DNA of 64,000 nt from Halobaculum saliterrae (lineage in GTDB: Archaea; Halobacteriota; Halobacteria; Halobacteriales; Haloferacaceae), in NCBI RefSeq assembly GCF_009831625.1, contig NZ_WUUS01000001.1, positions 496,301-560,300 on the forward strand, written 5' to 3'. A program made the position numbers and the translations under genes. Every line of letters begins with the position of its first letter. Position 1 is the first letter of the stretch. Of the stretch, positions 6,574 to 62,290 are shown piece by piece. The notes beneath the pieces were generated by a model, which was not told where the DNA came from, searched no databases, and saw only the letters and a program-made list of their open reading frames with translations.

Positions 6574-6644
6574 GTCGAGACCGGGTTTCACGTCAAGTGC
6601 TACCGCGTGCCAAACGCTAAGCCCCGGGGCGCGAACGTGCCCGC

Positions 6645-9486: not shown

Positions 9487-9617
9487 TCACACTCCCGTAC
9501 CCCGGCCCGGCGAATAAGCCTTCGGAACCGTCACGAGCGCACGACGGGCGAGCCACGGGCTGGCGAGGACGGAGGCGACGGGTGAAAACGGGTCGGCGGT
9601 GGAGCGGGCGCGGTACG

Positions 9618-10199: not shown

Positions 10200-10304
10200 G
10201 GATCCGGCTTGGAAGCGGGGGGTAACAAGGGTTGTGATCGCCCAGCGCGCGAGCGAGCCGTCGAACCCGGAGACGGCGAACGTGTTCGCGGAGCGACCGC
10301 CCGT

Positions 10305-11234
10305 CTACTCGTCCCGCCGCGGGACCTCGTGTCGACCGAACCCGTACCGAAGGCGGCTGGCGAGACGGCGGCCGAAGCGCTCCTCGCGCGAGTCGAAGCG
10401 CTCGGCGAGCGCCTGATAGATGAGCGGCACGGGAACCTCCTGTTCGAGCGCCTCCTGCACCGTCCACGTGCCGGTCGACCCGCCCTCGATACGGTCGGCC
10501 ACGTCGCCCAGATCGTTGCCCTCCTCGCGGAACGCCTCCTCACACAGTTCGAGCAGCCACGAGCGGATGACCGCGCCGTTGTTCCACGTGCGCGCGACGG
10601 CCTCCAGATCGAGGTCGTAGCGGCCGCGATGGAGCAGTTCGAACCCTTCCCCGTACGCCTGCATCAGCGCGTACTCGACGCCGTTGTGGACCATCTTCAC
10701 GTAGTGGCCCGAGCCGGCGGGCCCCATCCGGTCGTGGCCCGCGGAGCCGGTGGCGACGGCGTCGAACACGGGCGTCAGTTCCTCGTAGGCCCACTCGGGG
10801 CCGCCGACCATCAGGGAGAAGCCCAACTCGGCGCCGGCGGGGCCGCCGGACGTGCCGCAGTCGAGGTACGCCGCGTCGGTCGACTCCGCGCGGCGGGTGG
10901 AGTCCTCGAAGTACGAGTTGCCGCCGTCGACGACCACGTCGTCGCCCGTGAGGTGCGGTTCGAGTTCGTCGAGCGTGGCGTCGACCGCGTCGCCGGCGGG
11001 CACCATCAGCCAGATCCGGGCGCCGGCGTCGTCCCCGTCATTGTCCTCGCTCCCGCCGCCGTCGAGTCGGTCGTACAGATCCGCGACGGAGTCGGCCGGC
11101 TCCGCGCCGGCCTCCGCGGCCGCGGCGGTCGCCTCCGCGTCGAGGTCGAACGCGACCACGTCGTGGCCGGCGTCGAGGACGCGGTCGACGACGATCTGCC
11201 CCATCCGACCCAGCCCGATCACGCCGAGTTGCAT
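10305..11234 (-). CDS. gnd: 6-phosphogluconate dehydrogenase (decarboxylating), short type
   Basis: 309-residue enzyme converting 6-phosphogluconate to ribulose 5-phosphate, CO2 and reduced cofactor. It belongs to the short archaeal/bacterial GndA type, about 300 residues against about 470 for the long type. The N-terminal Rossmann motif is GVIGLGRMGQ and Asp-rich AFDLDAE follows strand 2. The substrate region includes GGNSYFEDSTRRA, CGTSGGPAGAELG and KMVHNGVEYALMQAYGEG. The C-terminal helical domain has IEGGSTGTWTVQEAL. An alternative start two codons upstream (MSMQLGV) is possible. It stands alone, divergent from the aminopeptidase gene. Confidence 0.93.
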   Translation of the reverse strand: MQLGVIGLGRMGQIVVDRVLDAGHDVVAFDLDAEATAAAAEAGAEPADSVADLYDRLDGGGSEDNDGDDAGARIWLMVPAGDAVDATLDELEPHLTGDDVVVDGGNSYFEDSTRRAESTDAAYLDCGTSGGPAGAELGFSLMVGGPEWAYEELTPVFDAVATGSAGHDRMGPAGSGHYVKMVHNGVEYALMQAYGEGFELLHRGRYDLDLEAVARTWNNGAVIRSWLLELCEEAFREEGNDLGDVADRIEGGSTGTWTVQEALEQEVPVPLIYQALAERFDSREERFGRRLASRLRYGFGRHEVPRRDE

Positions 11235-11376
11235 GCTCATACCGGCGCGTCGGCGAGGTCGGGCGTAGGCGTTGCGGTGTGTCGAGCGGCGTTCCGAGGC
11301 GTGGTCGCTCGCCGAGACCGTGCCCCGACCGCCCGAAAGCGCCGCACTTACGCGCTCGCCGTCCGCAGTCGGCGAC

Positions 11377-12480
11377 ATGGACGACCGAGTGCGCGAGCAC
11401 GCCGAGGTACTCGTCGACTGGAGCGCCCGCGTCGAGGCGGGCGATCAGGTCGTGATGGACGTCGCCGAGGGCGCCCACGACCTCGCGGTCGCGGTGGCCG
11501 CGGAGCTGGGGAAGCGCGACGCGACGCTGCTGACGACGTACGGGTCCAGCGAGGTGGGCCGCGCGTTCCTCCGCGCCGGCGACGACGACCGCGAGTTCGC
11601 ACACAGCGAGCCGAAGCTGGCGATGCTGGAGGCCGCTGACGTCTACCTCCGCATCGGCGGCGGCCGCAACACCACGGCGATGGCGGACGTGGACGGCGAC
11701 CGTCGGCAGAAGGCCCGGAAGGCGACCACGGCGACCCGCGAGGCCCGGATGGACACCGACTGGGTCTCCACGGTCCACCCGACGCGCTCGCTCGCCCAGC
11801 AGGCCGGAATGGCCTACGAGGAGTATCAGGACTTCGTGTACGACGCCGTCCTCCGCGACTGGGAGTCGCTGGCCGACGAGATGGCGAACATGAAGGAGGT
11901 CCTCGACGAGGGATCGGAGGTCCGCATCGAGACGGAGCACACGGACCTCACGATGTCCATCGAGGGGCGCACGGCGGTCAACTCCGCCGCGTCGGTCGCC
12001 TACGACTCCCATAACCTCCCCTCGGGCGAGGTGTTCACCGCCCCGCACGCCACGGAGGGGGAGGTGTTCTTCGACGTGCCGATGACCATCGACGCGACGC
12101 GCGTGAAGAACGTCTCGCTCACGTTCGAGGACGGCGAGGTGGTCGACTTCGCGGCCGAGCAGGGCGAGGACGCCATCGCGGACGTGCTCGACACCGACGA
12201 GGGTGCCCGCCGGCTGGGCGAACTGGGGATCGGGATGAACCGCGGCATCGACCGCTTCACCGACTCGATCCTGTTCGACGAGAAGATGGGCGACACGGTC
12301 CACCTCGCGCTGGGGCGTGCCTACGACGCCTGTCTCCCCGAGGGTGAGTCGGGCAACGACTCCGCGGTCCACGTCGACATGATCACCGACGTGTCCGAGG
12401 ACTCGCGCATGCTCGTCGACGGCGAGGTCGTCCAGCGAAACGGCACGTTTCGGTGGGAGGAGGGGTTCGAGTCAGCATAG
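11377..12480 (+). CDS. M29-family metallo-aminopeptidase
   Basis: 367-residue peptidase of the thermophilic aminopeptidase (AmpS/PepS) family, which removes N-terminal residues using two metal ions. The conserved metal-binding block is visible as LPSGEVFTAPH (about residues 214-224), ELGIGMN (about 286-292), the FDEKMGDTVHLALGRAY segment with its catalytic His and Tyr, and HVDMI near the C-terminus. N-terminal features include VDWSARVEAGDQV and YLRIGGGRNT. The start ATG is the first after the divergent gnd promoter region. Confidence 0.9.
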   Translation: MDDRVREHAEVLVDWSARVEAGDQVVMDVAEGAHDLAVAVAAELGKRDATLLTTYGSSEVGRAFLRAGDDDREFAHSEPKLAMLEAADVYLRIGGGRNTTAMADVDGDRRQKARKATTATREARMDTDWVSTVHPTRSLAQQAGMAYEEYQDFVYDAVLRDWESLADEMANMKEVLDEGSEVRIETEHTDLTMSIEGRTAVNSAASVAYDSHNLPSGEVFTAPHATEGEVFFDVPMTIDATRVKNVSLTFEDGEVVDFAAEQGEDAIADVLDTDEGARRLGELGIGMNRGIDRFTDSILFDEKMGDTVHLALGRAYDACLPEGESGNDSAVHVDMITDVSEDSRMLVDGEVVQRNGTFRWEEGFESA

Positions 12481-12585
12481 GTCGATCCGCGCCGCCACGG
12501 ATCAGAACTGCGGCGGTGGCACCGCGAACCGAGACGCGCCGGACCGTCGCGCTTAACCTCCAGCCGCCACCACGACCAGCCGACC

Positions 12586-13686
12586 ATGGAGCCGCGCCAC
12601 GCCCGGTACCCCTTCTTCGCGTCGGCCCGCGAGGCCGTCCGCGAGTCGGGCGTCGATCTGGCCGCGCTCGTCGCCGACGGCGACCCCGCCGTCGACCGCG
12701 GCCGCGAGCGGGTCGAGCGCGCGCTCACCGAGGGCACCGTCGAGGCGACGGAGCCGCGCGAGTGGGACACCCGCGACGAACTGCTCTCGTACCCGATCGC
12801 GCGGATCCTCGTCTCGCTGCTCGACTCCCGCGCGGCCGTCGAGAAGTACGCCGAGGCCGAGGCGGCCACCGCCCACCGCCGATTCACCGAGGACCTCCAC
12901 CAGGCCCGCGACGACGGCGCGCGACCGGATCCCGCTCGCGTCGACCAGCCGGCCCTGCTGCGGGAGTTCGATCTCGACGGCGCCGTCCGCGTCGAGGACC
13001 CGAAGCCCGGACAGGTCGAGGGGAAGTGGCTCTGGCTCGGCGTCGGCGCGTACCTCTCGTACGTCGACCCCGGCTGGGGCGACGACTGGCGGCTCGTCAA
13101 CCGCGAGCTCGTCGACGGCGAGGTGCGAACCGAACGCGAGGAGCTGTACCGCCTGCTCCGGGAGGCCGTCGAGGACCGCGTCGGCGACGGGCTCCCGTTC
13201 GAGGGCGTCGGCGACGAGCTCGCCGACGAGTTGGAGGCCGAGATCGGCGACCTTCGCGACCTGCTTGCCGACCGGAGCGTCGCCGCCGACCTCGACGTGG
13301 TGGCGCCGGAGCACTTCCCGCCGTGCGTCGGGAAACTGCTCGGTCGGGCACAGGGCGGCGACGACCTCGACCCGTACGAGCGGTTCTCGCTGCTCGCGTT
13401 TCTCGCCGGACTCAACCTCGACGCCGATGAGGTCGTCGCGCTGACGGGGCTGGACCCCGGCCTCGTCGCCGACCGCTTCGCGTACCTCCGCGACGACTCC
13501 GGCGCGCAGTACCCGCCTCCCTCGTGCCGGACGCTCGGCGAGTACGGGGTCTGCGAGAACGAACACAACCACCGGAGCGTCGCGCCGCACCCGCTGGAGT
13601 ACTACAGCCGGAAGCTTCGCGAGGCCGACGAGGTGGTCGACTGGCGCGACAGGGAACACACGGACGTCGGCGACGCCCCTGCCTGA
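12586..13686 (+). CDS. priL: DNA primase large subunit PriL
   Basis: 366-residue regulatory subunit of the archaeal/eukaryotic-type replicative primase. It works with PriS, which is not in this window. The N-terminal helical domain begins RHARYPFFASAREAV, and the C-terminal Fe-S domain covers about residues 230-345. Candidate 4Fe-4S ligands are C247 (PPCVGKLLG), C314 and C323 (SCRTLGEYGVC). The usual fourth Cys, before the conserved HPLEYY, is absent: that stretch reads ENEHNHRSVAPHPLEYY. The protein has no other Cys. The sequence is otherwise full-length and in frame, so this is either a real ligand change or loss of the cluster. Confidence 0.92.
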   Translation: MEPRHARYPFFASAREAVRESGVDLAALVADGDPAVDRGRERVERALTEGTVEATEPREWDTRDELLSYPIARILVSLLDSRAAVEKYAEAEAATAHRRFTEDLHQARDDGARPDPARVDQPALLREFDLDGAVRVEDPKPGQVEGKWLWLGVGAYLSYVDPGWGDDWRLVNRELVDGEVRTEREELYRLLREAVEDRVGDGLPFEGVGDELADELEAEIGDLRDLLADRSVAADLDVVAPEHFPPCVGKLLGRAQGGDDLDPYERFSLLAFLAGLNLDADEVVALTGLDPGLVADRFAYLRDDSGAQYPPPSCRTLGEYGVCENEHNHRSVAPHPLEYYSRKLREADEVVDWRDREHTDVGDAPA

Positions 13687-21550: not shown

Positions 21551-23524
21551 GTGAACGCCCGGACGAGCGCGCTCGACTCCCTCGTGTTCGGGGTCGACAT
21601 CCAGAGCGGCGACATCCGGGGCGACGCACCCTCCTACGCGCTCGTCGTCTTCGACGGCGAGTCGATCGAGCGGGACGTCGTCTCCCACCGAAAGCTCCGA
21701 CGACGGATCGAGGCGGACGAGCCCGCCGTCATCGCCACCGACAACGCCTACGAGCTCGCCGCCGACAAGGACGACCTCGTCCGGTTCCTGCGTGCGCTCC
21801 CGCACGGGACCTCGCTCGTGCAGGTCACCGGCGCCGAGCGGCCGGAACCGCTCTCGCGGGTCGCCTCCCGCCACGGCGTCCCCTACGGCAAGAAGCCGAT
21901 GCAGGAGGCGGAGGCGAGCGCCCGCCTCGCGGCCGCGAACGTCGGCTACGAGGTGACCGCCTTCACCGACACGACGACGGTGAAGGTGGCCCGCGGCCGC
22001 TCGACCGGAAAGGGCGGCTGGAGCCAGGACCGATACACGCGCCGTATCCACGGGAACGTGAAGCGGCAGGCCCGCGAGGTGGAGTCCGAGTTGGAGGACG
22101 CCGGCCTCGAGTACGAGGTCGACATCACCGAGAAGTACGGCGGCTACTCGAACGCCGTCTTCTCGGTGGCGGCGCGGCCGCAGGACATCCCCGTGAGCGC
22201 CCATCGATCGGGCGACACCCGCGTCGAGATCGAACGCGAGCGGCGCGACGGCATCGAGTTCGAGCCGCTGGTGAAGCGTCGCGACCGCGTGATCGTCGGC
22301 ATCGACCCGGGGACGACGACCGCCGCCGCCGTCATCGGCCTCGACGGCACGGTGTTCGACGTGCACTCGACGCGGACCGCCGACACCGCCGAGGTGATCG
22401 AGTGGCTCGTCGAGCGCGGCCGCCCCGTCATCGTCGCCGCCGACGTGACGCCGATGCCCGAGACCGTCGAGACGTTCCGTCGGAGCTTCAACGCCGCCGG
22501 GTGGACCCCGGACAGCGACCTCCCGGTCGACGAGAAGCTCCACCGCACCCGCGACGAGTCGTACGACAACGACCACGAGCGCGACGCCCTCGCGGCGGCG
22601 CTGTTCGCGTTCGACAGCCACGAGGACCAGTTCGAGCGCGTCGGCCGGAAGGCGCCCGCCGGGATCGACCGCGCGGAGGTGATCGCCCGCGTCGTCGCCG
22701 ACGAGCAGTCCGTGGAGGGCGCGCTTTCGGACCTGCGCGACGACGACGGCGAGGAGACCGAGGAGTCCGGACCGGAGCCGCGCGAACTCACCGACGAGGA
22801 GAAGCGCATCCGGGATCTGGAGTCGCAGGTCGACCGGCTCCAGTCGCACGTCGACGACCTCAAGGACGAACTCGACGGGAAGGAGGAAGAGATCGAGGAG
22901 TTGGAGGAGGAGCTGTCGGACGCCCGCCGGGAGGAGCGGCTGGAGGCCCGGCGCGACCGCGAGGTCACGCGGATCCGGCGCGAGAACAGTCGGCTGGAGC
23001 GCGAGCGCGACGAGGCCGAGGAGACGGTCGAGGAGCTGGAGGACAAGCTCGCGCGCATGAAGACGCTGTGGAAGCTGGATCACGACGACTTCGCGGACGT
23101 CTCGAAGGGGCGCGATCTGGTCCCCGTGAAGGCGGTCGAGCAGTTCACGAAGCGCGCGATCGAGCGCGCCGACGAACAGTACGGGCTCGCCGCCGGCGAC
23201 GTGGTGTACCTCCGCGACGCCTCCGGCGCCGGGCGCACCACGGCCGAGCGGCTCGCGGAGACGGAGCCGCGGGTGATCCTGCGGAACGGGGGGCTCTCCG
23301 ACGCCGCCGAGCGGGTGCTGTTCGACCACGAGATCCCCGTCGGTCCCGCCGACGACGTGACGATACAGGAGGTCGACGAGCTGGCGGTCGCCCGCGAGAG
23401 CGACGTGGAGGCGGTGATCGACGACTGGGAGGACCGCGCCGCGGCGCGGGAGCGCGAGCAGACCGAGGCGATGGTGGACGAGATCATCTCCGAACATCGG
23501 GCGGGCGAGGGCGAGCGAACGTAG
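21551..23524 (+). CDS. DUF460 protein: RNase H-like (RuvC-like) domains plus coiled coil
   Basis: 657-residue uncharacterised archaeal protein. Residues 10-60 (VFGVDIQSGD ... ALVVFDGESIER ... AVIATDN) and 256-345 (VIVGIDPGTTTAAAVIGLDG ... VIVAADVTP) both look like RNase H-fold segments with acidic residues at the expected strand ends. DNDHERDALAAALFAF supplies a C-terminal Asp of a RuvC-type site. A long coiled coil follows (about 400-515, heavy in Glu/Arg/Leu), then a compact C-terminal domain beginning LWKLDHDDF. The GTG start is supported by the promoter. The 3' end, encoding RAGEGERT, runs into an 80-bp tandem repeat. Nuclease activity is inferred from the fold only. Confidence 0.85.
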   Translation: MNARTSALDSLVFGVDIQSGDIRGDAPSYALVVFDGESIERDVVSHRKLRRRIEADEPAVIATDNAYELAADKDDLVRFLRALPHGTSLVQVTGAERPEPLSRVASRHGVPYGKKPMQEAEASARLAAANVGYEVTAFTDTTTVKVARGRSTGKGGWSQDRYTRRIHGNVKRQAREVESELEDAGLEYEVDITEKYGGYSNAVFSVAARPQDIPVSAHRSGDTRVEIERERRDGIEFEPLVKRRDRVIVGIDPGTTTAAAVIGLDGTVFDVHSTRTADTAEVIEWLVERGRPVIVAADVTPMPETVETFRRSFNAAGWTPDSDLPVDEKLHRTRDESYDNDHERDALAAALFAFDSHEDQFERVGRKAPAGIDRAEVIARVVADEQSVEGALSDLRDDDGEETEESGPEPRELTDEEKRIRDLESQVDRLQSHVDDLKDELDGKEEEIEELEEELSDARREERLEARRDREVTRIRRENSRLERERDEAEETVEELEDKLARMKTLWKLDHDDFADVSKGRDLVPVKAVEQFTKRAIERADEQYGLAAGDVVYLRDASGAGRTTAERLAETEPRVILRNGGLSDAAERVLFDHEIPVGPADDVTIQEVDELAVARESDVEAVIDDWEDRAAAREREQTEAMVDEIISEHRAGEGERT

Positions 23525-23920: not shown

Positions 23921-23942
23921 ACCCCTTCGTTTCGACTGGAAC
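23921..23942 (-). promoter_or_regulatory. isolated ORB-like (Orc1-binding) motif
   Basis: The minus strand reads GTTCCAGTCGAAACGAAGGG followed by GT. This fits the archaeal origin recognition box pattern (TTCCA, then GAAAC, then a G-run) very well, and matches the motifs around orc1 at 52.3-56.4 kb. It lies in gene-free DNA between the 80-bp repeats and the 3' end of the threonine deaminase gene. No orc1 gene is near. Confidence 0.6.
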
Positions 23943-24007: not shown

Positions 24008-25288
24008 TCAGTTGATCCGATCGACCTCGTAGTCGCGGTCGCGGATCGCATCGAGGAGCTGCCCGGCGTGCTCGCGGCCCGACGCCGCGACCTCGAAGAC
24101 GAGATACGCCTCGCCGACGCGCAGGTCCTCGACGGCGCGGTCGTGGCGAACGTGGCGGACGTTGGCGCCGCGATCCGCCAGCACCGTCGAGAGCGTCGAG
24201 AGCTCGCCGGGTTCGTCCTCGATGCGGACGCGCAGACGGAGGAGCTGGTCGCGGTCGGTCATCGCGTGTTCGAGCACGGTGTCGAGCATCGACATGTCGA
24301 TGTTGCCGCCACACAGCAGCGGGACGACCGTCTCGTCGGCCACGTCGATGCGGCCGGACAACAGCCCGGCGACGCTCGCGGCGCCGGCGCCCTCGACCAG
24401 TTGCTTGGCCCGTTGGAGGAGCGTGAGGATGGCGTGGGCGATCTCGTCGTCGCTGACGGTGACGACCTCGTCGACGTGGCGCTCGATCAGGTCGTAGGTG
24501 AGGTCGGCGACGCCGCCGGTGGCGATGCCGTCGGCGATGGTGCGGGTGTGCTCGCGGTCGACGGGCTCGCCCTTGTCGAGGCTGTCGGGCACGGTCGCGG
24601 CGTCCTCGGCCTGTACGCCGACGACGCGGACCTCGGGGGCGACCGACGCGAGCGCGGTGGCGACCCCCCCGATGAGCCCGCCGCCGCCGATGGGGACGAT
24701 CACGGTGTCCAGATCGGGCACCTGTTCCGCGACTTCGAGGCCGAGCGTGCCCTGCCCGGCGACGATGGCGGGGTCGTCGTAGGCGTGGACGAAGACGGAG
24801 CCGGGCTCCTCGGCGAGGTCGCGGGCGTGCGCGACCGCAGCCTGGAACTCCCGGCCGTGGAGGACGACCTCCGCGCCGTAGCCGCGGGTCGCGTCGACCT
24901 TCGCCTGGGGGGCGTCCTCGGGCATCACGACGACGGCGGGGATGCCGGCGTTCGAGGCCGCGAGCGCGACGCCCTGGGCGTGGTTGCCGGCGCTGGCGGC
25001 GACGACGCGCTCCGCGTCGCCGTGCTCACGGCTCGCGTCGCTCGCCGTTCGCTCCGAGGGCTCACTCCGTTCACCCTCGCCCGCCTCAACGATCTCGTGG
25101 AGCTTGTTCGAGGCGCCGCGGGTCTTGAACGAGCCCGTGCGCTGCAGGTGCTCCATCTTGAGGCGCACGTCCGCGCCGCTCATCTCCGAGAGCGAGCGGG
25201 ACCGCTCGACGGGCGTCTCGCGGACGATGTCGGGGTCGAACCGCTCGCGCGCCCGCCTGACGTCGGTGATCGTGACGGAGGAAGTCAT
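24008..25288 (-). CDS. ilvA: threonine ammonia-lyase (threonine deaminase) with ACT domain
   Basis: 426-residue PLP enzyme converting threonine to 2-oxobutyrate and ammonia, the entry to isoleucine synthesis. The PLP lysine is in GSFKTRGASNK, the cofactor loop is ASAGNHAQGVA, and the phosphate-binding glycine loop is PIGGGGLIGG. A C-terminal ACT domain (LRLRVRIEDEPGELSTLST onward) suggests amino-acid feedback control. Between KLHEIVEA and ERVVAASAGN there is an extra segment of about 22 residues (GEGERSEPSERTASDASREH) encoded by a repeat-derived insertion that keeps the frame. The short form (about 400 residues) is otherwise normal. Confidence 0.92.
   Translation of the reverse strand: MTSSVTITDVRRARERFDPDIVRETPVERSRSLSEMSGADVRLKMEHLQRTGSFKTRGASNKLHEIVEAGEGERSEPSERTASDASREHGDAERVVAASAGNHAQGVALAASNAGIPAVVVMPEDAPQAKVDATRGYGAEVVLHGREFQAAVAHARDLAEEPGSVFVHAYDDPAIVAGQGTLGLEVAEQVPDLDTVIVPIGGGGLIGGVATALASVAPEVRVVGVQAEDAATVPDSLDKGEPVDREHTRTIADGIATGGVADLTYDLIERHVDEVVTVSDDEIAHAILTLLQRAKQLVEGAGAASVAGLLSGRIDVADETVVPLLCGGNIDMSMLDTVLEHAMTDRDQLLRLRVRIEDEPGELSTLSTVLADRGANVRHVRHDRAVEDLRVGEAYLVFEVAASGREHAGQLLDAIRDRDYEVDRIN
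25021..25086 (-). repeat. repeat-derived in-frame insertion inside ilvA
   Basis: On the minus strand this segment (GCGAGGGTGAACGGAGTGAG ..., ending GAGCACG) aligns with the 80-bp unit at 23515. Shared blocks are GCGGGCGAGGG, AGTGAG, GCCCTCG-AGCGAACGG, GAGCG and CCGTGAGC. It encodes residues missing from typical threonine deaminases and leaves the frame intact. Confidence 0.7.
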
Positions 25289-45885: not shown

Positions 45886-47098
45886 GGCGTCCGGGCCGGC
45901 CGAGCGGTCCGATCCGGCGGTTCGGGTGGAGGACCTCCGCGTCGAGTACGGGTCGACGACCGCGCTCGACGGCGTCGACGTGACCGTCGAGGAGGGCGAG
46001 TTCTTCACCCTCGTCGGCCCGTCGGGGTGCGGAAAGACGACCACGCTCCGGTGTCTCGCCGGCTTCGAGGAGCCGACCGCGGGCTCGATACACATCGCCG
46101 GCGAGTCGATGGCGGGCGTTCCACCCGAATCGAGGGGGATCGGCGTCGTGTTCCAGAGCTACGCGCTGTTCCCGCACATGAGCGTCGGCGAGAACGTCGC
46201 CTACGGCCTCCGCTTCTCGGGGCCGCCGGAGGGGACCACGAAACACGAGCGCGTCGAGGAGCTGCTCGAACTCGTGGACCTCCCGGGGTTCGCCGACCGC
46301 GACCCGGACACGCTCTCGGGCGGCCAACAGCAGCGAGTGGCGCTCGCGCGGGCGCTCGCGCCCGAGCCGCGGCTCCTCCTGCTCGACGAGCCGATGTCGG
46401 CGCTGGACGCACGCCTGCGCGAGCGCCTCCGGGTGCAGGTGCGGGAGATCCAGCGAGAACTGGGCATCACGACGGTGTACGTCACCCACGATCAGGAGGA
46501 GGCGCTCTCGGTCTCCGACCGCGTCGCCGTCGTGGACGGCGGCCGGATCGAGCAGGTCGGCCGGCCCCGCGAGCTGTACGACGCGCCGGCGACCCGGTTC
46601 GTCGCGGAGTTCCTCGGCGACAACAACGTGTTCGCTGGGTCGGTCGTCGCCGGGGGCGACCGCGTCCGCGACGCGGCGGCCGCCCGGGACGACGGCGGCG
46701 ACCCCCTGCGCCTCCGCGTCGACGGAGGCGGGACGCTCCCCCTCCCGAGCGACGTGGCGGAGGATGCCCGTGACGGCGACCGCCTCGTCGTCTGCGTGCG
46801 CCCCGAACGGATCCGGGTCCACGCTTCCGGCGACGGCGACCGCGAGGGCGAGAGAGCCGGTGATCGCGTCGGCGGCAACGGTGGGACGGGGAGGGGGACG
46901 GGGGCGGACCCGGATGGGGCGTTGCTGGCGACGACCGTCGAGAGCACCGAGTTCCTCGGCGACGCGACGCGACTCCACTGCGACTGGAACGGCGTCGCCG
47001 TGACCGTCCGAACCGACGGGAGCCGGTCCTTCGACGTCGGCGAACCCGTGACCCTCGGTGTCGACCGCGCGGACGTTCGGGTCGTCGAGCGCTCGTGA
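45869..47098 (+). CDS. thiQ: ABC transporter ATP-binding protein of the thiamine-type importer
   Basis: 409-residue ATPase. Walker A is VGPSGCGKTTTL, the Q loop is VVFQSYALFPHM, the signature is LSGGQQQRVALARAL, Walker B is LLLLDEPMSALD, and the H loop is VTHDQEEAL. Unlike classical ThiQ (about 230 residues) it has a long C-terminal TOBE-like regulatory part (from about 235), interrupted by a Gly/Asp/Arg low-complexity insert at about residues 320-345. This makes it closer to PotA/FbpC. GTG starts at 45869 or 45878 are both possible, and both overlap the thiP stop. Confidence 0.92.
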   Translation: MSSVGEASGPAERSDPAVRVEDLRVEYGSTTALDGVDVTVEEGEFFTLVGPSGCGKTTTLRCLAGFEEPTAGSIHIAGESMAGVPPESRGIGVVFQSYALFPHMSVGENVAYGLRFSGPPEGTTKHERVEELLELVDLPGFADRDPDTLSGGQQQRVALARALAPEPRLLLLDEPMSALDARLRERLRVQVREIQRELGITTVYVTHDQEEALSVSDRVAVVDGGRIEQVGRPRELYDAPATRFVAEFLGDNNVFAGSVVAGGDRVRDAAAARDDGGDPLRLRVDGGGTLPLPSDVAEDARDGDRLVVCVRPERIRVHASGDGDREGERAGDRVGGNGGTGRGTGADPDGALLATTVESTEFLGDATRLHCDWNGVAVTVRTDGSRSFDVGEPVTLGVDRADVRVVERS

Positions 47099-51078: not shown

Positions 51079-52671
51079 TCAGGCGAACTTCCGGACCGTC
51101 ATGTCGAGCGTGTCGAGATCGAGGATGGGGGCGTGAGCGACGTCGGGGTCGATGTTGACGGACTTCTGGAAGTCGGTCTGGGCCTGCCAGCACCCGGAGT
51201 TGACCGCGAGGACGTTGTGGTACTTCCCCCAGCCGAGCTTGTGGACGTGGCCGGTGTGGAACACGTCCGGCACCTCGTCGATGACGAGGTAGTCGCGCTC
51301 CTCGGGGGCGACGCGGGTCTTCCCGCCGAACTGCGGGGCGACGTGGCGCTTCTTGAGGAGCTGGTACATCGCCTTGTGGGGTTCGTCGTAGCTGGCCTTC
51401 TCCTCCGGCAGCTCGGCGATCACCTCGTCGAGGGAGACCCCGTGGTACATGAGGACGTTCACGCCCTCCACGTCGACCATCGCGGGGTTGCTCACGATCT
51501 GGGGGTCGTGCGCGCTCATGATCCCCCGGAGCTCCTCGTCGAACCCCGGCTGGGGCTCGGCGAGCCGGACGGCGTCGTGGTTCCCGGGGATCATGACGAT
51601 CTCCATGTCGCCCGGCACCTGCTTGAGGTGCTCGGAGAACGTCTCGTACTGCTCGTAGATGTCGATGATGTCGAGCTCCTCGTCCTGATTCGGGTAGACG
51701 CCGACGCCCTCGACCATGTCGCCCGCGATGAGCAGGTACTCGACGTGTTCGGCCTCCTCCGTGTGAAGCCAGTCGGCGAACCGACCCCAGGCGTCCGCGA
51801 GGAACTCCTGAGAGCCGACGTGCACGTCCGAGACGAGCGCCGCCTGCACGTGGCGGTCGGCGGTGTTCGGGCGGTGGGTGCGGGGTACGTCGGGGAAGTG
51901 GATCGCGTCGACGAAGACGATGCCCGCGTCGTCCGCGAGCGTTCCGGTGACGGCGATACACTCGTCCATGAGGAGTTCGTCCACCAGGTCCGCGATGTCG
52001 CGGTCCTTCATCACGAGACACGGGAACGTTCCGGTGGTGTCCTCCAGTTCGACCAGCCAGTGGCCCGACGCGGTCGACCGAATGTCGTTGACGAGGCCGA
52101 TGAGCTCCACGTCGGCGCCGCCCCCCATCGCCTCGATGGAGTCGGCAGGGCGGTGGTTGACGCGCCCCCGAAGCTGTCCGGAGAGGCGCTCGTATCGGTC
52201 GCGGAACACCCCGACGAACTCGTCGTATGCTCCCGTTCCGGTCGACGCGCCGGTCATGTCGTTCGCGACGACGGGCGCCTGTGGGGATCGGTCGACGACC
52301 GTGTTCCCCTCCGTTTCGTCCGGAACGGCTCCGGTTCCGTGTGGCGATCCACCCCCGGACACTCCAGTCGAAACGGAGGGGTCCGAATTGACGGCGTCGT
52401 TCGTCGGTTCCGACGACGCGGCGGCGGCCGACTCGGTCGAGCGGGCCGCGCCGTCGACCTGTTCGGGGTCCGGAACGGGCTCGGCGTCGAGCGCCTCCCG
52501 GACGTGGTCGACGGTGAGAACGAGTGCGTCCTCGGGCGCGGTCTCGATGGCCGCCTCGAGGGCGAGTTCCGGCGTCGACGACTCGGCGATGAGCGTGACG
52601 GCCTCCCGCTCGGCGTTGTACCCGCGGCGAGTGAGCGCCTGCACGACTCGGGAGGACGTCTCCAGCGGCAC
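51079..52671 (-). CDS. polD1: DNA polymerase D small subunit (DP1), exonuclease
   Basis: 530-residue small subunit of the archaeal replicative polymerase PolD, carrying the Mre11-like 3'-5' proofreading nuclease. The N-terminal domain begins VPLETSSRVVQALTRRGYN. A low-complexity Ser/Asp/Ala linker follows (about 85-150), then an OB fold (IRSTASGHWLVELEDTTGTF). The phosphoesterase domain has ALVSDVHVGSQEF, IAGDMVEGVG, IPGNHDAVR, MYHGVSL and FHTGHVHKLGW. The GTG start is chosen by family alignment and a TATA-like ATCCTTTT about 28 nt upstream. Two ORB-like motifs are encoded within the linker. The large subunit DP2 is not in the window. Confidence 0.95.
   Translation of the reverse strand: MPLETSSRVVQALTRRGYNAEREAVTLIAESSTPELALEAAIETAPEDALVLTVDHVREALDAEPVPDPEQVDGAARSTESAAAASSEPTNDAVNSDPSVSTGVSGGGSPHGTGAVPDETEGNTVVDRSPQAPVVANDMTGASTGTGAYDEFVGVFRDRYERLSGQLRGRVNHRPADSIEAMGGGADVELIGLVNDIRSTASGHWLVELEDTTGTFPCLVMKDRDIADLVDELLMDECIAVTGTLADDAGIVFVDAIHFPDVPRTHRPNTADRHVQAALVSDVHVGSQEFLADAWGRFADWLHTEEAEHVEYLLIAGDMVEGVGVYPNQDEELDIIDIYEQYETFSEHLKQVPGDMEIVMIPGNHDAVRLAEPQPGFDEELRGIMSAHDPQIVSNPAMVDVEGVNVLMYHGVSLDEVIAELPEEKASYDEPHKAMYQLLKKRHVAPQFGGKTRVAPEERDYLVIDEVPDVFHTGHVHKLGWGKYHNVLAVNSGCWQAQTDFQKSVNIDPDVAHAPILDLDTLDMTVRKFA
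52304..52384. promoter_or_regulatory. pair of inverted ORB-like motifs inside polD1
   Basis: At 52305-52326 the minus strand reads GTTCCGGACGAAACGGAGGG then G. At 52362-52384 the plus strand reads CTCCAGTCGAAACGGAGGGG then TCC. Both fit the archaeal origin recognition box pattern, and their G-runs point toward each other. They fall in the disordered linker of polD1 (coded as VPDETEGN and DPSVSTGV), about 4 kb from the AT-rich origin core. Confidence 0.6.
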
Positions 52672-52879
52672 GACACGAGGTCGGCCGGGCGCGGGCAAAA
52701 GGATAGCGGATGGACGCACGGCGACGACGTCGGCAGTTCGGCCCGCGATCGCGCCAGTGGGGAACGGATCCCGTATCAGGCGGCAGCCGTCGCCGTCCGG
52801 TCGTCAGGGCGTCGGTCGGCCACGCTTCGAGGGCGCGGTAACAGAAAGTTCAACACCGAGCGCCGGGTTCGAGTGAATA

Positions 52880-53632
52880 ATGAGTGACGACGGGCGGTCG
52901 CCCGACGACCCGCTGTCACGGTTCCTTCACGCCGAGACGGGTGCGTCGGTGTTCATCCGTGAGGTCCTCACGTCGGTACTCGCGGTCGCGCTGATCGGAC
53001 TCCTCCTGTTCGCCGCGTCGGGCGTCTGGCCACCGATGGTCGCCGTCGAGTCGGGCAGCATGGAGCCGCACATGGAGCGCGGCGACCTCGTGTTCATCAC
53101 GGAACCCGATCGGTTCTCCCCCGACTTCGCGCACGGCGACACCGGGGTCGTCACCCACGAGACCGGCGCCACGGAGGGGTACGCCACCTTCGGCGAACCC
53201 GGGTCCGTGATCGTGTATCGCCCGCCCGGGTCGGGCGGCTCGCCGATCATTCACCGTGCCCGGCTACACGTCGAGGAGGGCGAGAACTGGGTCGACCGCG
53301 CGAACCCCGAGTATCTCCCCGCGACCTCGTGTGAGCGGGTTCCCTCCTGTCCGGCCCCGTACGACGGGTTCATCACGAAGGGCGACGCGAACGCCGAGTA
53401 CGACCAGGTGAGCGGTATCGCTCCCGTCGTGAAGTCCGAGTGGATCCGCGGCGTCGCACGCGTTCGCGTCCCCTACCTCGGATACGTTCGGCTGGTCTTC
53501 TCGGAAGTCGTGCTCGTACAGACGGACGGCCCCGGGCTGGCGACCGCCGCCGCATCGGGTGTCGAGTACACCCCGAACCAGCGCTCGAGTACGAGTTCCA
53601 ACACCACCGTTTCGCGTGGAACCGTTATTTGA
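52880..53632 (+). CDS. sec11: signal peptidase I, archaeal Sec11 type
   Basis: 250-residue membrane protease that cleaves Sec signal peptides. One N-terminal membrane helix (about residues 30-55) precedes the catalytic Ser in VAVESGSMEPHMERGD (S60). The His is in SPIIHRARLHV, as in archaeal Sec11 (where bacterial enzymes use Lys), and the Asp is in FITKGDANAEYD. The C-terminal 60 residues lack a clear second helix and end in a Ser/Thr-rich tail. It is divergent from polD1 and convergent with orc1. Confidence 0.93.
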   Translation: MSDDGRSPDDPLSRFLHAETGASVFIREVLTSVLAVALIGLLLFAASGVWPPMVAVESGSMEPHMERGDLVFITEPDRFSPDFAHGDTGVVTHETGATEGYATFGEPGSVIVYRPPGSGGSPIIHRARLHVEEGENWVDRANPEYLPATSCERVPSCPAPYDGFITKGDANAEYDQVSGIAPVVKSEWIRGVARVRVPYLGYVRLVFSEVVLVQTDGPGLATAAASGVEYTPNQRSSTSSNTTVSRGTVI

Positions 53633-53852: not shown

Positions 53853-55682
53853 TCAGTTGTCGAAGCGGGCCTGAACGAACGGCTGGACGTCCTCGATGTC
53901 GCCGAGTCGGGAGTCCGAGAGCAGGACGGCCTCGGTTTCGTCGATCGGGACGGACAGGGAGATCTCCTTCGTCCGTCCGTAGCGACCCTTCGAGACGACG
54001 ACCGCGTTGACGATGCCGAGCATGTCGAGTTCGGAGATGAGGTCGGTGACGCGACGCTGCGTGAGCACGTCGGCGTCGATCTCCTCACAGAGCCGCTTGT
54101 AGATGTTGAACACCTCGCCGGTGTTGACGTTGTGAACGCCGTTCTGTTCGAGGAGAATGATGGAGAACAGGACGATCTTGCTCTGGGTCGGGAGCGTGCG
54201 AACCACCTCGACGACGCGATCCAGCTCGATCTTGTCCTGGGCCTGTCTGACGTGCGCCTCCTCCACGAGGTCGGCCTGCGAGCGTTCGGCGAGCTCGCCC
54301 GCGGTGCGCAGCAGGTCGAGCGCGCGGCGAGCATCCCCGTGCTCCTGGGCAGCGAAGGCGGCACACAGCGGGATCACGTCCTCGGTGAGGGCATCGGGCT
54401 TGAACGCGATGTCCGACCGGTGCTGGAGAATGTCCCGCAGCTGGTTCGCGTCGTACGGCGGGAAGACGATCTCCTCCTCGCCGAGGCTCGACTTGACGCG
54501 TGGGTCGAGGAAGTCGGTGAACTTCAGGTCGTTGGAGATCCCCATGATCGAGATCCGGGAGTTCTCCAGTTCGGAGTTCATCCGCGAGAGGTTGTACAGG
54601 GTGTCGTCGCCGCTCTTCTCGACGAGCTTGTCGATCTCGTCGAGCATGATGACGACGACGCGCTCGTGGTAGTCGACGGCGTCGAAGAACGTGGAGTAGA
54701 CCCGGTCGGTCGGCCAGCCGGTCATCGGTACCTCCTCCATCTCCTCGCGGTCCGATTCGAGGTCCGCGATACGATCGTCGACATCGGCGACGGAGCCGAA
54801 CTCGGTTCCCTCGAGCGCTCCCTCGTCGTCGGTGGCAGCCGAGCGGAGGTCGCGGAGGTCGTCGAGGCGGTCGCCGATCACCCGGTCGTTCTTCTCGATG
54901 AACTTGTTCGCGAGCTGTGCGAGCACGCGATACTGGGTGTCGGTCACCTCGCAGTTGATGTACTCGACCTCGCAGGGGACGTCGTACTTCTGGCTGGTCG
55001 ACTCGAGTTCCTGTGAGACGAACTTCGCCGAGGCGGTCTTTCCCGTCCCCGTCTTCCCGTAAATCAGGATGTTCGACGGCGTCTCCCCGCGCAGCGCGGA
55101 CACGAGGATCGTCGCCATCTTGTTGATCTGGTCCTTTCGGTGGGGGAGCTCGTGGGGGGTGTACGAGGGACGAAGCACCTCCTTGTTCTCGAAGATGGGC
55201 TCGCCGGAGAGGAGGTCGTCGAACAACCCGGTGCTGGCTTCGTCGTCCTCGTCGGCGAGCACCTCGTCGACGTCGAGGTCGACGTCCGTTCGCGATCGGG
55301 ATCCGGACCCGAAGTTGAACGACGTTCCACCCGCGCCGGCGTCAGTGTCGCCGCCGGGGTCTCGGTCAGCGTCGCCGCCGGGGCCTCGGTCAGCGTCGCC
55401 GCCGACGCGCCCGTCGGTATCGTCGTCACGGTCACCGCGTCCTCCCTCGTCGGTGTCAGCGGCGGTGGTTCCGGTGGAAACGGGGTCGGGTGCTGTTTCG
55501 GATCCGGGTCCGACTCCGAGATCGGGTGCCGAGTCAGAGCCGGTGCCGTCGCTCTCCGGATCGGACGACCGCCCCTCGCTTCGGGTGGAGTCGTCGTTCT
55601 CGTCGGAGTGCGCCGCGACATCCGACGGGTCGTCGGTTCCGTCGTCGTTCGAACTGTGTTCCGGCTCGTCGTCCCGTGTCAT
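53853..55682 (-). CDS. orc1: Orc1/Cdc6 replication initiator with long acidic N-terminal extension
   Basis: 609-residue origin-binding AAA+ ATPase, expected to bind ORB elements and load MCM at the adjacent origin. Conserved sequence begins at GLFDDLLSGEPIFENKEVLR (about residue 152). Walker A is IYGKTGTGKTAS (209-217), Walker B is VVIMLDEIDKL, and the C-terminal winged helix includes LTQRRVTDLISELDMLGIV. Residues 1-150 are Asp/Gly/Ser-rich with a GGDADR-type repeat, which most Orc1 proteins lack. The first ATG, MTRDDEPEHS, is chosen because codon use stays acidic and haloarchaeal. A GTG at 55262 (VLADEDDEAS) is an alternative start that would give 469 residues. Confidence 0.95.
   Translation of the reverse strand: MTRDDEPEHSSNDDGTDDPSDVAAHSDENDDSTRSEGRSSDPESDGTGSDSAPDLGVGPGSETAPDPVSTGTTAADTDEGGRGDRDDDTDGRVGGDADRGPGGDADRDPGGDTDAGAGGTSFNFGSGSRSRTDVDLDVDEVLADEDDEASTGLFDDLLSGEPIFENKEVLRPSYTPHELPHRKDQINKMATILVSALRGETPSNILIYGKTGTGKTASAKFVSQELESTSQKYDVPCEVEYINCEVTDTQYRVLAQLANKFIEKNDRVIGDRLDDLRDLRSAATDDEGALEGTEFGSVADVDDRIADLESDREEMEEVPMTGWPTDRVYSTFFDAVDYHERVVVIMLDEIDKLVEKSGDDTLYNLSRMNSELENSRISIMGISNDLKFTDFLDPRVKSSLGEEEIVFPPYDANQLRDILQHRSDIAFKPDALTEDVIPLCAAFAAQEHGDARRALDLLRTAGELAERSQADLVEEAHVRQAQDKIELDRVVEVVRTLPTQSKIVLFSIILLEQNGVHNVNTGEVFNIYKRLCEEIDADVLTQRRVTDLISELDMLGIVNAVVVSKGRYGRTKEISLSVPIDETEAVLLSDSRLGDIEDVQPFVQARFDN
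55468..55491 (+). promoter_or_regulatory. ORB-like motif within the 5' part of orc1
   Basis: The plus strand reads GGTTCCGGTGGAAACGGGGT followed by CGGG. It has the inverted TTCC/GGAA core and the G-run of an origin recognition box. It codes for DPVSTGT in the acidic N-terminal extension of Orc1. A weaker match lies at 55571-55590 on the minus strand. Confidence 0.5.
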
Positions 55683-55692
55683 TCGTTCGTTG

Positions 55693-55715
55693 TACCCCCT
55701 TGTTTCGACTGGAAC
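55693..55715 (-). promoter_or_regulatory. ORB-like motif just upstream of orc1
   Basis: The minus strand reads GTTCCAGTCGAAACAAGGGG then GTA, ending 11 nt before the orc1 ATG. Binding of Orc1 here would cover the orc1 promoter or leader, so autoregulation is plausible. That is inference. Confidence 0.65.
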
Positions 55716-56227
55716 ACGCACCGGGCACCCGCCGTATCACCGGTTCTCTCGGCGGATATCGGCTGTGTTGAGCCCGGATCGCCGATCGGGCGTGTCCAGA
55801 TGATGCAACCGAAATGGATGGACAGCCCGTTAAAAAACGTTACTGTTCGGTCGAGTCGACGTCGGACGTTCGGTGTCGAACGGCGTCGTTCGAGGGGTGA
55901 GATCGGTGTCCGGCGGGCGGGTATCGAGTACACGATCGATCTCGGGTCCGGATCCCGATCGCGAACGGACTCGAGCTGCCGGACGATCGGCCTGATCGAG
56001 AATGGCCAAGTAAGACCGATCCTACCGGAAGCGATCCAACACGGTGACGGCTCTACTCACTTTGGCGTTCACCTACTCAGCGCTCGACCGGAAACGCTCC
56101 GCGATCGGGGACGCGGATCTCGACGGTCCGAACGAGTCCGCGTTCGTAACCGGATTCGACTAGAAACGGTCCCGACGAACACAGGGAGGTATTCGGTTCC
56201 GTATCCCTGGTGAGGGCGGGTTCCGCG

Positions 56228-56444
56228 ACCCCCCCACCCCTTCGTTTCCGGTGGAGACGACAACGAGGAGAGGGTGGCCAAGGGCATCTCGATCACGGTG
56301 TCTTTATTACGAATAAACTCGAACAGTATCCGCACGACTAGCAAATATATTTTGTTTAGGGTGTGGTGGTATCTAGAAAACGCGCGTCGGACGTCCCCCT
56401 CTCCCCGATCCCGGAAGTTCCACCTGAAATGGAGGGGTGGGGGT
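56228..56444. other. predicted chromosomal replication origin core (oriC1 type)
   Basis: Two extended ORB motifs flank an AT-rich segment. At 56228-56258 the minus strand reads GTCTCCACCGGAAACGAAGG followed by GGTGGGGGGGT. At 56417-56444 the plus strand reads GTTCCACCTGAAATGGAGGG followed by GTGGGGGT. They are in opposite orientation, G-tails outward. Between them, 56301-56320 and 56340-56360 (TTTATTACGAATAAA and CAAATATATTTTGTTTA) are the most AT-rich DNA nearby, fitting a duplex-unwinding element. orc1 is on one side and oapABC on the other. From 55716 to 56227 I see no gene or strong motif. Confidence 0.85.
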
Positions 56445-56872
56445 GATCTCTCCCGACGTGTATCCGACTGTCCCTCCCATCGACGCCCGTGAGAAAGTGT
56501 AGGAAGAGTGCCAACAACAGCGCGTTAAATCGCACCGTCCACGGGAGACACGTCGGTGAGTCCACCCCTCGAACACAGGACTGGTGTCCCCCTGCTAGCG
56601 ATCTCCCCTAGCGTGCACTCCGTCGCCGTCGATTCCGGTCGGCGGACATCTGGACTACGGGCGAGCTTCGGTCCGGGAGCCCACTGGCCGAGGGGGACCA
56701 TCCCTCACTGCGGTTGCCACCCACCACCCGGGTGCCTTCCCGTTACCTGTCTGGAGAGGTCGGTTGTCGACAAGAAACCTTGGCGTACCCCGTCTGACGT
56801 AGTGCTTAAGTGGCGCGGATGGTTTGAGGTGATAACGCCCTCCACACGATACGGAGGGAAACGGAGGCCAGG
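56445..56872 (+). promoter_or_regulatory. gene-free region between oriC and oapA, with oapA promoter and leader hairpin
   Basis: No protein gene is convincing here. At 56804-56811 CTTAAGTG is a TATA-like box for oapA. A hairpin (CCCTCC paired with GGAGGG, 56838-56858) and a Shine-Dalgarno GGAGG (56863-56867) precede the ATG. 56560-56760 is GC-rich with several possible stems, but it has no recognisable SRP or RNase P RNA core motif. Confidence 0.5.
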
Positions 56873-57514
56873 ATGGGTCTGCTCACCAATCTCAGGGACA
56901 GTATTACACGGGTCACCGATCGGCTCTTCGCCGACGACGAGCCCAAACGGATCGGGATATACGGCCCGCCGAACGCGGGCAAGACGACGCTGGCGAACCG
57001 GATCGCCCGCGACTGGACCGGCGACGCCGTCGGTCCCGAGAGTCACATCCCGCACGAGACGCGTCGCGCGCGAAGGAAGGAGAACGTCGAGATCGAACGG
57101 AACGGCAAGACCGTCACCATCGACATCGTGGACACGCCGGGCGTGACCACGAAGGTGGACTACAAGGAGTTCCTCGATCACGACATGGAGAAGGACGACG
57201 CCGTCAAGCGGTCGCGCGAGGCGACCGAGGGCGTCGCGGAGGCGATGCACTGGCTCCGCGAGGACGTCGACGGCGTCATCTACGTCCTCGACTCCACCAC
57301 GGATCCGTTCACGCAGGTCAACACGATGCTCATCGGGATCATCGAGAGTCAGGACCTCCCGGTGCTCATCTTCGCGAACAAGGTCGACCTCGACGACGCC
57401 GACGTGAAGCGCATCGCCGACGCGTTCCCGCAACACGAGACGGTGCCGCTGTCGGCGCTGGAGGGGGATAACATGGACGAAGTGTACGAGAAGATCGCGG
57501 AGTACTTCGGATAA
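56873..57514 (+). CDS. oapA: origin-associated Era-like GTPase OapA
   Basis: 213-residue GTP-binding protein. G1 is GIYGPPNAGKTTLANR (about residues 28-42), G3 is DIVDTPGVTTKVDY, G4 is IFANKVDLDDA, and G5 is VPLSALEGDN. A short amphipathic N-terminal region precedes the G domain. It heads a three-gene operon next to the origin and overlaps oapB by one base (TAATG). The name reflects the conserved position of these genes beside haloarchaeal oriC1. The molecular role is unknown, and a checkpoint or regulatory role in replication is speculation. Confidence 0.92.
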   Translation: MGLLTNLRDSITRVTDRLFADDEPKRIGIYGPPNAGKTTLANRIARDWTGDAVGPESHIPHETRRARRKENVEIERNGKTVTIDIVDTPGVTTKVDYKEFLDHDMEKDDAVKRSREATEGVAEAMHWLREDVDGVIYVLDSTTDPFTQVNTMLIGIIESQDLPVLIFANKVDLDDADVKRIADAFPQHETVPLSALEGDNMDEVYEKIAEYFG

Positions 57515-57906
57515 TGCCCGAAGCAACCGCTCCCGACGACGGCGACGGCGTCCGTATCGACCTCATCAGCGGCGCCCGGATGGAGGGACTCACCTCGATG
57601 GAGAAGATCCGGCTCATCCTCGACTCCGTCCGCGACGGCGACATCGTCGTCCTCGAGGCGGGTCTCTCGCCCGAGGAGGAGTCGAAGCTCATCGAGGTCA
57701 CGATGACCGAGATCAGCCCCGACGACTTCTCCGGCATCGAGATCGAGACGTACCCGTCGACGCAGCAGCCGAACCAGGGGCTCATGGGTCGGCTCCTCGG
57801 CAAGGAGGAGGCCGCCAAGAAGCTGACCGTGATCGGCCCGGCCAACCAGATCGAGACGCTGCACAAGGACGAGGACCTCATCAGCGCGCTCGTCTCCCGC
57901 AAGTAG
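57514..57906 (+). CDS. oapB: origin-associated DUF2073 protein OapB
   Basis: 130-residue DUF2073 protein, recognised by RIDLISGARMEGLTSMEKIRLIL and VRDGDIVVLEAGLSPEEESKLIE. The rest (MTEISPDDFSGIEIETYPS ... LLGKEEAAKKLTVIGPANQIETL) is well conserved in archaea that also carry the OapA GTPase. The start ATG overlaps the oapA stop by one base. Probably a partner or effector of OapA. No catalytic residues are obvious. Confidence 0.9.
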   Translation: MPEATAPDDGDGVRIDLISGARMEGLTSMEKIRLILDSVRDGDIVVLEAGLSPEEESKLIEVTMTEISPDDFSGIEIETYPSTQQPNQGLMGRLLGKEEAAKKLTVIGPANQIETLHKDEDLISALVSRK

Positions 57907-57908
57907 CG

Positions 57909-58505
57909 ATGCCGCACCAGTGTACCAACTGCGGACGGACGTTCGCCGACGGGTCGAAGGAGATGCTCTCGGGGTGCCCCGACTGCGGCGGCAACAAGTT
58001 CCAGTTCGATCCGACCGGCGAGGCCGAGACAGCTCCACCCGAAACGGAGGACACCGCGACCCGAAGCGCCTCGACAGCCTCGCCCGAGGGAACGAGCGCG
58101 GACGACCCGGGGGTCACGGATGACGTGGCTGAACCGAACACGTCGCCCCCGACGGCACCCGATACGGAGGACGGCGCGCAGGCGAGCGCTCGCTCCGATG
58201 TCGTCTCGCCGGACGAGCTCGCCGCGGCCGCCGAGTCGACCGAACCGGCAGCCGATCGAGCCGAACAGGGGGAGACAGCCCCGTCACCTGCCGACACCGA
58301 TCCGTCCGACACGGACGCGTCGGACTCGAACCTCGACGCCCTCCGGCAGAAACTCAACGACCAGTTCGAGTCCATCCGTATCGTCAGTCCGGGCCAGTAC
58401 GAGCTGAACCTCATGGAGCTGTACGACCGGGAGGAGTACATCATCTCGCTTCGCGAGGACGGCCGATACGTCATCGAGATGCCCGAAGGCTGGGACGACC
58501 GCTGA
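57909..58505 (+). CDS. oapC: origin-associated zinc-ribbon protein OapC
   Basis: 198-residue protein in three parts. The N-terminal zinc ribbon has C5-C8 (CTNCGRTF) and C23-C26 (GCPDCGG). A disordered Asp/Thr/Pro/Ala-rich linker covers about 38-135. The conserved C-terminal domain is LRQKLNDQFESIRIVSPGQY ... REDGRYVIEMPEGW. It lies 2 nt after oapB, so it is the third gene of the operon. The linker codons for TAPPETED contain an ORB-like motif. Function unknown; nucleic-acid binding through the ribbon is plausible. Confidence 0.9.
   Translation: MPHQCTNCGRTFADGSKEMLSGCPDCGGNKFQFDPTGEAETAPPETEDTATRSASTASPEGTSADDPGVTDDVAEPNTSPPTAPDTEDGAQASARSDVVSPDELAAAAESTEPAADRAEQGETAPSPADTDPSDTDASDSNLDALRQKLNDQFESIRIVSPGQYELNLMELYDREEYIISLREDGRYVIEMPEGWDDR
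58032..58052 (+). promoter_or_regulatory. ORB-like motif inside oapC
   Basis: The plus strand reads GCTCCACCCGAAACGGAGGA then C. It has the ORB core with a shorter G-run, and lies in the linker-coding part of oapC. Confidence 0.4.
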
Positions 58506-58721
58506 ACACGGGCCCGACCGTCCCGTTCTACCCGAAACCGTTCCCGTTCGGTCCGGACGACTCGCCCGGTCCGACTCGGCCCCCGTCGATCTACTCGAAC
58601 CGACTCCTGTACTCGACTGGAACCCCTGTATTCGAACCGGACCCCTTCAGCCGAATCGAACCCCCACTCGAACCGCATCCTCCACTCGAACTGTTCCCTT
58701 ACACTTGAACCGCACCCTCCA

Positions 58722-58841
58722 CTCGAACTGCCTCCCTCCACTCGAACTGCCTCCCTCCACTCGAACTGCCTCCCTCCACTCGAACTGCCTCCCTCCACTC
58801 GAACTGCCTCCCTCCACTCGAACTGCCTCCCTCCACTCGAA
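58722..58841 (+). repeat. 19-bp tandem repeat array
   Basis: CTCGAACTGCCTCCCTCCA is repeated six times perfectly (58722-58835), with partial copies on both sides. From 58610 to 58721 the array degrades into variants around CTCGAACCG and ACTCGACTGGAACCCC. The gap 58506-58894 holds no gene. There are no spacers, so it is not CRISPR. Confidence 0.95.
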
Positions 58842-62128: not shown

Positions 62129-62220
62129 GTCCCAGACAGCGACCGCTCGAACTTAAATTCCGCTGCGCCCCCGACTCCGCCGGCCGTTCAGTCCTTGACC
62201 AGTCGAACCGTCCCGACGCT

Positions 62221-62290
62221 CAGAACTCGGATCGACACTCAGAACTCGGATCGACACTCAGAACTCGGATCGACACTCAGAACTCGGCTT
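62221..62290. repeat. 19-bp tandem repeat over the lysC stop codon
   Basis: CAGAACTCGGATCGACACT is repeated three times (62221-62277), with a partial fourth copy at 62278-62290. The last copy contains the final codons and stop of aspartate kinase (GAG TTC TGA on the minus strand), so the gene's 3' end has been copied downstream. Confidence 0.93.

Follow-up and report, generated by a model that had tools for sequence, protein, structure and literature searches.

The closest described counterpart of the locus analysed here is oriC1 of Haloarcula hispanica, which consists of two inverted ORBs, essential halophile G-strings and AT-rich DNA between the ORBs (PMC3936714). Both ORBs and both G-strings are needed there, and an inner G-rich inverted repeat acts as an enhancer (PMC3936714). 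In that species, deleting the oriC1-type initiator gene, cdc6A, proved much more difficult than deleting oriC1, which implies that the gene has a further role; oriC2D, a cluster of 11 ORBs downstream of cdc6E, restrains oriC2, likely by titrating Cdc6E (PMC3936714). How archaeal initiation is limited to the right number of rounds is not yet clear, according to a 2024 review (PMC7617429). In E. coli, DnaA boxes are enriched near oriC (PMC12371093), and modelling indicates that titration sites near an origin prevent re-initiation (PMC9640692).

The origin core and its neighbourhood

The window, defined as the whole 64,000-nucleotide stretch of Halobaculum saliterrae DNA that was analysed, resembles oriC1 of H. 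hispanica (and those of Haloferax volcanii and Halobacterium NRC-1) in its orthologous orc1, its inverted ORBs with a G-string, its AT-rich middle and its gene neighbourhood. The preliminary description had claimed two divergent ORBs with G-tails, and both were found where it had placed them, at 56228-56258 on the minus strand (CTCCACCGGAAACGAAGGGGTGGGGGGG) and at 56417-56444 on the plus strand (GTTCCACCTGAAATGGAGGGGTGGGGGT). The pair forms a 25-nt inverted repeat with arms that are 88% complementary and 163 nt apart. The two ORBs score 21/22 and 22/22 against the ORB consensus, and nothing in the rest of the window exceeds 17/22. They are also the only full ORBs genome-wide: the pattern TCCANNNGAAANNNNGGGGTGGGGG has exactly two matches in the 3,775,766-base genome, which are these ORBs, and its reversed control has none. 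The AT-rich DNA that had been reported between them at 56301-56360 (67% AT) is likewise present, since no 60-bp segment in the window is richer in AT than the one beginning at 56299 (68% AT); the stretch at 56299-56360 is the presumed unwinding element. A repeat search recovered an inner G-rich inverted repeat of 11 nt, with its right half (CCCTCTCCCCG) at 56397-56407 and its left half, 91% complementary to the right, at 56264-56274. The left half is degenerate, and in comparison with H. hispanica the inner repeat is only partly present; this element is not universal among haloarchaeal origins of the oriC1 type.

These elements lie in a 1.2-kb gene-free gap with orc1 on one side and oapABC on the other, flanking genes whose earlier assignment was confirmed by NCBIfam and Pfam. 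Searches for Rfam families and tRNAs in or near the orc1-oapABC gap found none, and RNA-family and tRNA explanations of the gap were dropped. A switch in GC skew had been expected near 56 kb. When the last 200 kb of the contig were analysed, cumulative GC skew peaked at 57272, which places the maximum roughly 1 kb from the ORBs; the contrast was of moderate strength (97th percentile for ±10 kb and 92nd for ±40 kb).

The gap is almost certainly oriC1. All of the testable sequence features of the classic haloarchaeal layout invoked in the preliminary description are present and are syntenic class-wide. Because the core and the neighbourhood recur across the haloarchaeal class and the design matches that of H. 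hispanica, the gap is best regarded as an ordinary, well-built oriC1; the origin of this locus is of the textbook type and already known. The earlier reading of the core was therefore correct but incomplete, as it overlooked outlying, shorter ORBs (mini-ORBs, below), including one at 55694-55714.

The initiator gene, orc1, occupies 53853-55682 on the minus strand, most likely starting at the ATG at 55682-55680. Its product matches Cdc6_C, Cdc6_lid and the NCBIfam ORC1-type equivalog NF001625 (654 bits against a cut-off of 501), is 95% identical to Orc1 of Halobaculum litoreum, and shares homology with 2qby_A and 2v1u_A, archaeal initiators of known structure. A set of 24-bp repeats inside orc1 (55341-55404) codes for part of a long acidic N-terminal extension, which lies ahead of the AAA+ core and is probably disordered. 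Cdc6/Orc1 domain matches (L001-L008) were located on contigs C1, C2, C8, C12, C13 and C14 of this genome (G000); seven matches to the C-terminal domain occur besides orc1, six over the Pfam cut-off and one below it.

The conserved neighbourhood of orc1, DP1 and oapABC is complete at this locus. DP1, the DNA polymerase D small subunit gene, lies at 51079-52719 on the minus strand (NF003116, 959 bits). On the other side of the origin the oapABC operon, which is the arvABC operon (56873-58505), runs on the plus strand as the small GTPase gene oapA/arvA (56873-57514; PMC10927574), oapB (57514-57906; PF09846) and oapC (57909-58505; PF09845). In Haloferax volcanii the OapA/ArvA GTPase drives the formation of extracellular vesicles (PMC10927574), so the link between oapABC and the origin is positional as far as is known. 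The interval that separates oapC from a MATE transporter gene holds 9.5 tandem copies of a 19-bp unit (CCACTCGAACTGCCTCCCT) with a strong C skew (58664-58841), preceded by a decayed repeat array at 58592-58675; a second 19-bp array, of 3.9 copies, lies at 62214-62287.

To place the core in a wider context, species-representative genomes were scanned, yielding 38 haloarchaeal loci with the same Orc1 (L009-L046). A divergent ORB pair with G-tails stands upstream of orc1 in 35 of these, with a spacing of 185-612 bp from start to start. As for the remaining three, one locus stops at a contig end (L019), in another the pair was not found (L036), and that of Halovivax asiaticus (L040) is rearranged. 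In Halovivax the block of orc1, signal peptidase and DP1 genes is inverted, and the ORBs lie beside oapABC, away from orc1. This natural inversion (5908-13580 of the locus), which separates oriC1 from orc1, is useful for asking whether an origin and its initiator gene must adjoin.

Mini-ORBs and their clustering at the origin

When the ORB consensus was relaxed, a shorter motif without the G-tail surfaced, TCCANNYGAAACRNNGGGGT, which we call the mini-ORB. The H. saliterrae genome (3.78 Mb) contains three perfect 21-mers of the form TTCCANNYGAAACRNNGGGGT, at distances from -32 to +18.5 kb from the ORBs, and none that match the reversed control. The search for TCCANNYGAAACRNNGGGGT covered 6 genomes reached via the loci, 60 of the window's family and 44 of its class, overlapping sets that amount to 98 distinct genomes. 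All 98 haloarchaeal genomes carry the motif, with 2-9 matches each (a count that includes ORBs fitting the pattern), and the reversed control has no match in any of them. Outside the haloarchaea, relatives also carry ORBs close to orc1, and a looser mini-ORB pattern gives 0-5 matches per genome there; that looser-pattern search did not establish an operator-like placement of mini-ORBs in these relatives.

Mini-ORBs cluster around the origin. Site positions were tabulated for 63 genomes, 45 of which have a clear ORB pair. Of the 142 further sites in these 45 genomes, 115 are no more than 50 kb from the pair, as counted before correction for circular numbering. For 17 chromosomes of known length, where circular distances could be used, 45 of 55 extra sites fall within 50 kb, against an expectation of 1.8, and 53 of 55 fall within 100 kb of oriC1. 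A search allowing two mismatches in 4 complete genomes gave the same crowding at the origin, together with some weak sites elsewhere.

The two classes of motif differ in sequence. Full ORBs follow TCCACccGAAACgAAGGGGTGGGGG, and the last three of their five Gs are nearly invariant (67-68 of 68), whereas distal mini-ORBs follow TCCAgtCGAAACGAAGGGGTt and the G-tail is absent. The core recognised by Orc1 and the GGGGT string are both retained in mini-ORBs, whose motif is asymmetric and non-palindromic. Mini-ORBs are very probably sites for Orc1. Orc1 should bind them, but they would not be expected to serve as origins, because the G-tail is essential for origin activity in H. hispanica. Sites within 1.5 kb mostly point outward (29:3). 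An orientation bias of the distal sites was considered and dropped, as 31 point outward and 28 inward.

Sites before orc1, within DP1 and at gene 3' ends

The mini-ORB nearest to the initiator gene, TTCCAGTCGAAACAAGGGGGT (55694-55714, minus strand), is separated from the orc1 ATG by 11 nt. A similar arrangement, with a mini-ORB that points toward the gene and stops 2-14 nt short of the orc1 start, is found in 30 of the 38 other haloarchaeal loci. An initiator-motif site is thus found in the orc1 promoter region, as judged by sequence and position, and a position just before orc1 suits a site for a protein that blocks or tunes its own promoter. We propose it as an Orc1 operator, with a relation to TATA and the transcription start that is deduced from its placement, and Orc1 probably regulates its own gene through it.

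A divergent pair of mini-ORBs lies within the coding sequence of DP1, mostly 57 bp apart from start to start, in a poorly conserved linker. The first, at 52362-52382 on the plus strand, is formed by the codons of DPSVSTG; the second, at 52305-52325 on the minus strand, is formed by those of PDETEG and has two mismatches in this genome. To separate selection on DNA from selection on protein, DP1 sequences were picked by protein alignment alone and the codons were then counted. Codon choice at the sites departs strongly from that in the rest of the gene: Val is GTT in 22/22 (background 8%, P = 1e-24), Pro is CCA in 26/27 (background 9%), Gly is GGA in 24/26 (12%), Thr is ACT in 19/21 (7%), Gly is GGG in 27/27 (22%) and Glu is GAA in 29/29 (31%). 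The strongest of 360 control columns has P = 5e-13 and the strongest DP1 site columns range from 1e-18 to 1e-27, values that overstate independence because the species in the tests are related. Codon choice rules out a mere conserved protein motif; with a codon bias beyond the controls, the peptide motif is best read as the by-product of a conserved DNA element, and the pair is selected as DNA. If true, initiator sites in the codons of a polymerase are an unusual case of overlapping information. These sites also keep to their genes where the locus is rearranged: in the inverted Halovivax block the operator-position mini-ORB stays with orc1 and the divergent pair stays in DP1, and in a Haladaptatus locus (L122) in which DP1 is about 19 kb from orc1 the pair moves with DP1.

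The remaining sites are mostly located at the 3' ends of genes. Among 55 distal non-coding sites, 39 have the 3' end of a gene within 100 bp and only 2 have a start that close; divergent gaps hold 3 of the 55, compared with 31% of the intergenic length in C1. The idea that all mini-ORBs are promoter sites was rejected for the distal ones on account of the 3'-end placement and the 2/55 near starts. Locations at 3' ends are poor for transcription control and reasonable for passive binding sites.

Distal locations are only partly conserved. The commonest is the 3' end of a cgi121-like gene, downstream of a hel308-like helicase gene (both named by eye), often facing tRNA-Gln(CTG), and 17 of 18 tRNA-linked mini-ORBs lie on the 3' side of that tRNA. 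In the H. saliterrae genome the tRNA-Gln gene is at C1 570968-571042 and the mini-ORB at 571094, beyond the window. Mini-ORBs also recur in an ABC ATPase gene, near uvrB and, mostly in close relatives, in the gap that precedes the threonine ammonia-lyase gene. Within the window, a perfect distal mini-ORB on the minus strand at 23921-23941, 32 kb from the ORBs, occupies the convergent gap between a 657-aa gene (21551-23524, plus strand) and the threonine ammonia-lyase gene (24008-25288, minus strand), and a site is found at the same place in the close relatives L123, L125 and L141 and also in L166. A mini-ORB-like site at 53601-53621 (minus strand) marks the 3' end of the gene for signal peptidase, and a weak site with two mismatches at 46119-46139 (plus strand) lies in an ABC-transporter ATPase gene that has perfect sites in other genera.

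Initiator titration and alternative readings

From these placements we infer Orc1 binding, repression and titration at the mini-ORBs. In the proposed mechanism, Orc1, bound at the two divergent ORBs, would assist in opening the intervening AT-rich DNA and in loading MCM. Through the mini-ORB that closely precedes the orc1 start codon, Orc1 would repress its own gene, and the outlying sites, that is, the DP1 pair and the single sites at 3' ends, would bind Orc1 without firing. Because they are near oriC1, the origin-proximal mini-ORBs would double soon after initiation; free Orc1 would then fall and re-initiation would be held back. Extra initiator-motif sites are indeed concentrated near the origin, where titration would place them. 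We lean toward autorepression of orc1 combined with titration of Orc1 by non-firing sites close to oriC1. That titration is the main role of the outlying mini-ORBs has, in our estimate, not quite an even chance. More tentative still is the full proposal, in which dedicated, origin-proximal, firing-incompetent Orc1 sites, including the orc1 operator and the DP1 pair, would set the firing time of oriC1 by autoregulated titration. With a handful of outlying sites per chromosome copy, titration would require few Orc1 molecules per origin or a strong affinity, and the need for strict once-per-cycle control is weakened by the polyploidy of haloarchaea and by the ability of some to grow without origins (PMC7617429).

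Two kinds of described system bear on this proposal. In oriC2D of H. hispanica, as in the window, initiator motifs away from the origin are thought to restrain the cognate origin; however, oriC2D is one dense array beside cdc6E and concerns Cdc6E, whereas the mini-ORBs concern the universal oriC1/Orc1 pair and are single or paired sites spread over tens of kilobases at fixed genes, some of them coding. Bacterial DnaA control, with its dnaA promoter boxes, datA and origin-biased DnaA boxes, likewise combines a site at the initiator promoter with extra sites concentrated near the origin. There the differences are that the initiator of the window is an Orc1/Cdc6 protein with a winged helix, that its sites are few rather than hundreds, and that their role is proposed from sequence. 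The operator-position mini-ORB and the origin-proximal sites are unmentioned in the oriC1 literature examined, and in the searchable literature, outside which two older papers on Haloferax and Halobacterium origins fall, an orc1 operator, ORB sites in DP1 and origin-proximal mini-ORBs have apparently not been described for haloarchaea.

Both forms of control, restraint and an initiator role beyond the origin, would be explained at oriC1 by the outlying mini-ORBs. Titration together with autorepression could explain why the oriC1-type initiator gene is so much harder to delete than the origin. Should Orc1 repress its own gene and be sequestered close to oriC1, an ORC-type initiator would share its control logic with bacterial DnaA. 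The mini-ORBs are concrete, class-wide DNA elements, genetically tractable in Haloferax or Haloarcula, with which to test the control of initiation.

The main rival to titration holds that the outlying mini-ORBs are origin-proximal anchors for chromosome organisation or segregation, similar to parS and bound by Orc1 or by a partition protein. Bacterial parS sites are similarly placed to the mini-ORBs, which are few, strongly origin-proximal, often at gene 3' ends and sometimes in coding sequence. The motif, however, is an ORB core with the GGGGT string rather than the palindrome of parS in ParABS systems, and one mini-ORB is promoter-proximal to the initiator gene; anchoring is in our view an unlikely explanation. 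We give a smaller chance to the idea that Orc1 is a general transcription regulator and that mini-ORBs regulate nearby replication and repair genes (orc1, the polD small subunit gene, hel308-cgi121 and uvrB). Such genes are among the neighbours of mini-ORBs, the orc1 site is at an operator position, and the initiator-like Orc1-2 is a transcription regulator (PMC9738581), but the distal sites favour 3' ends over divergent promoter gaps and the DP1 pair is well inside coding sequence. Binding by another protein with an ORB-like motif is also improbable: the mini-ORB sub-consensus, TCCAGTCGAAACG mostly followed by T, does depart from the TCCACCCGAAACG plus GGGGG of full ORBs, but the core and GGGGT string are the recognition motif of Orc1, and one site marks orc1 itself. 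A plain oriC1 surrounded by chance matches or functionless relics, for which some weak two-mismatch sites elsewhere in the chromosomes might be cited, is already strongly disfavoured by the zero control matches, clustering far above chance, fixed positions and codon-level conservation, and we consider it very improbable.

Two groups of mini-ORBs lie farther from oriC1. The Natribaculum breve chromosome (G006, C1, 2174808-2175130) has three same-strand mini-ORBs within 330 bp, 82 kb from oriC1, and in Halosimplex pelagicum (G004) three weaker sites are grouped at a distance of 417 kb; these trios are possibly further origins or binding arrays.
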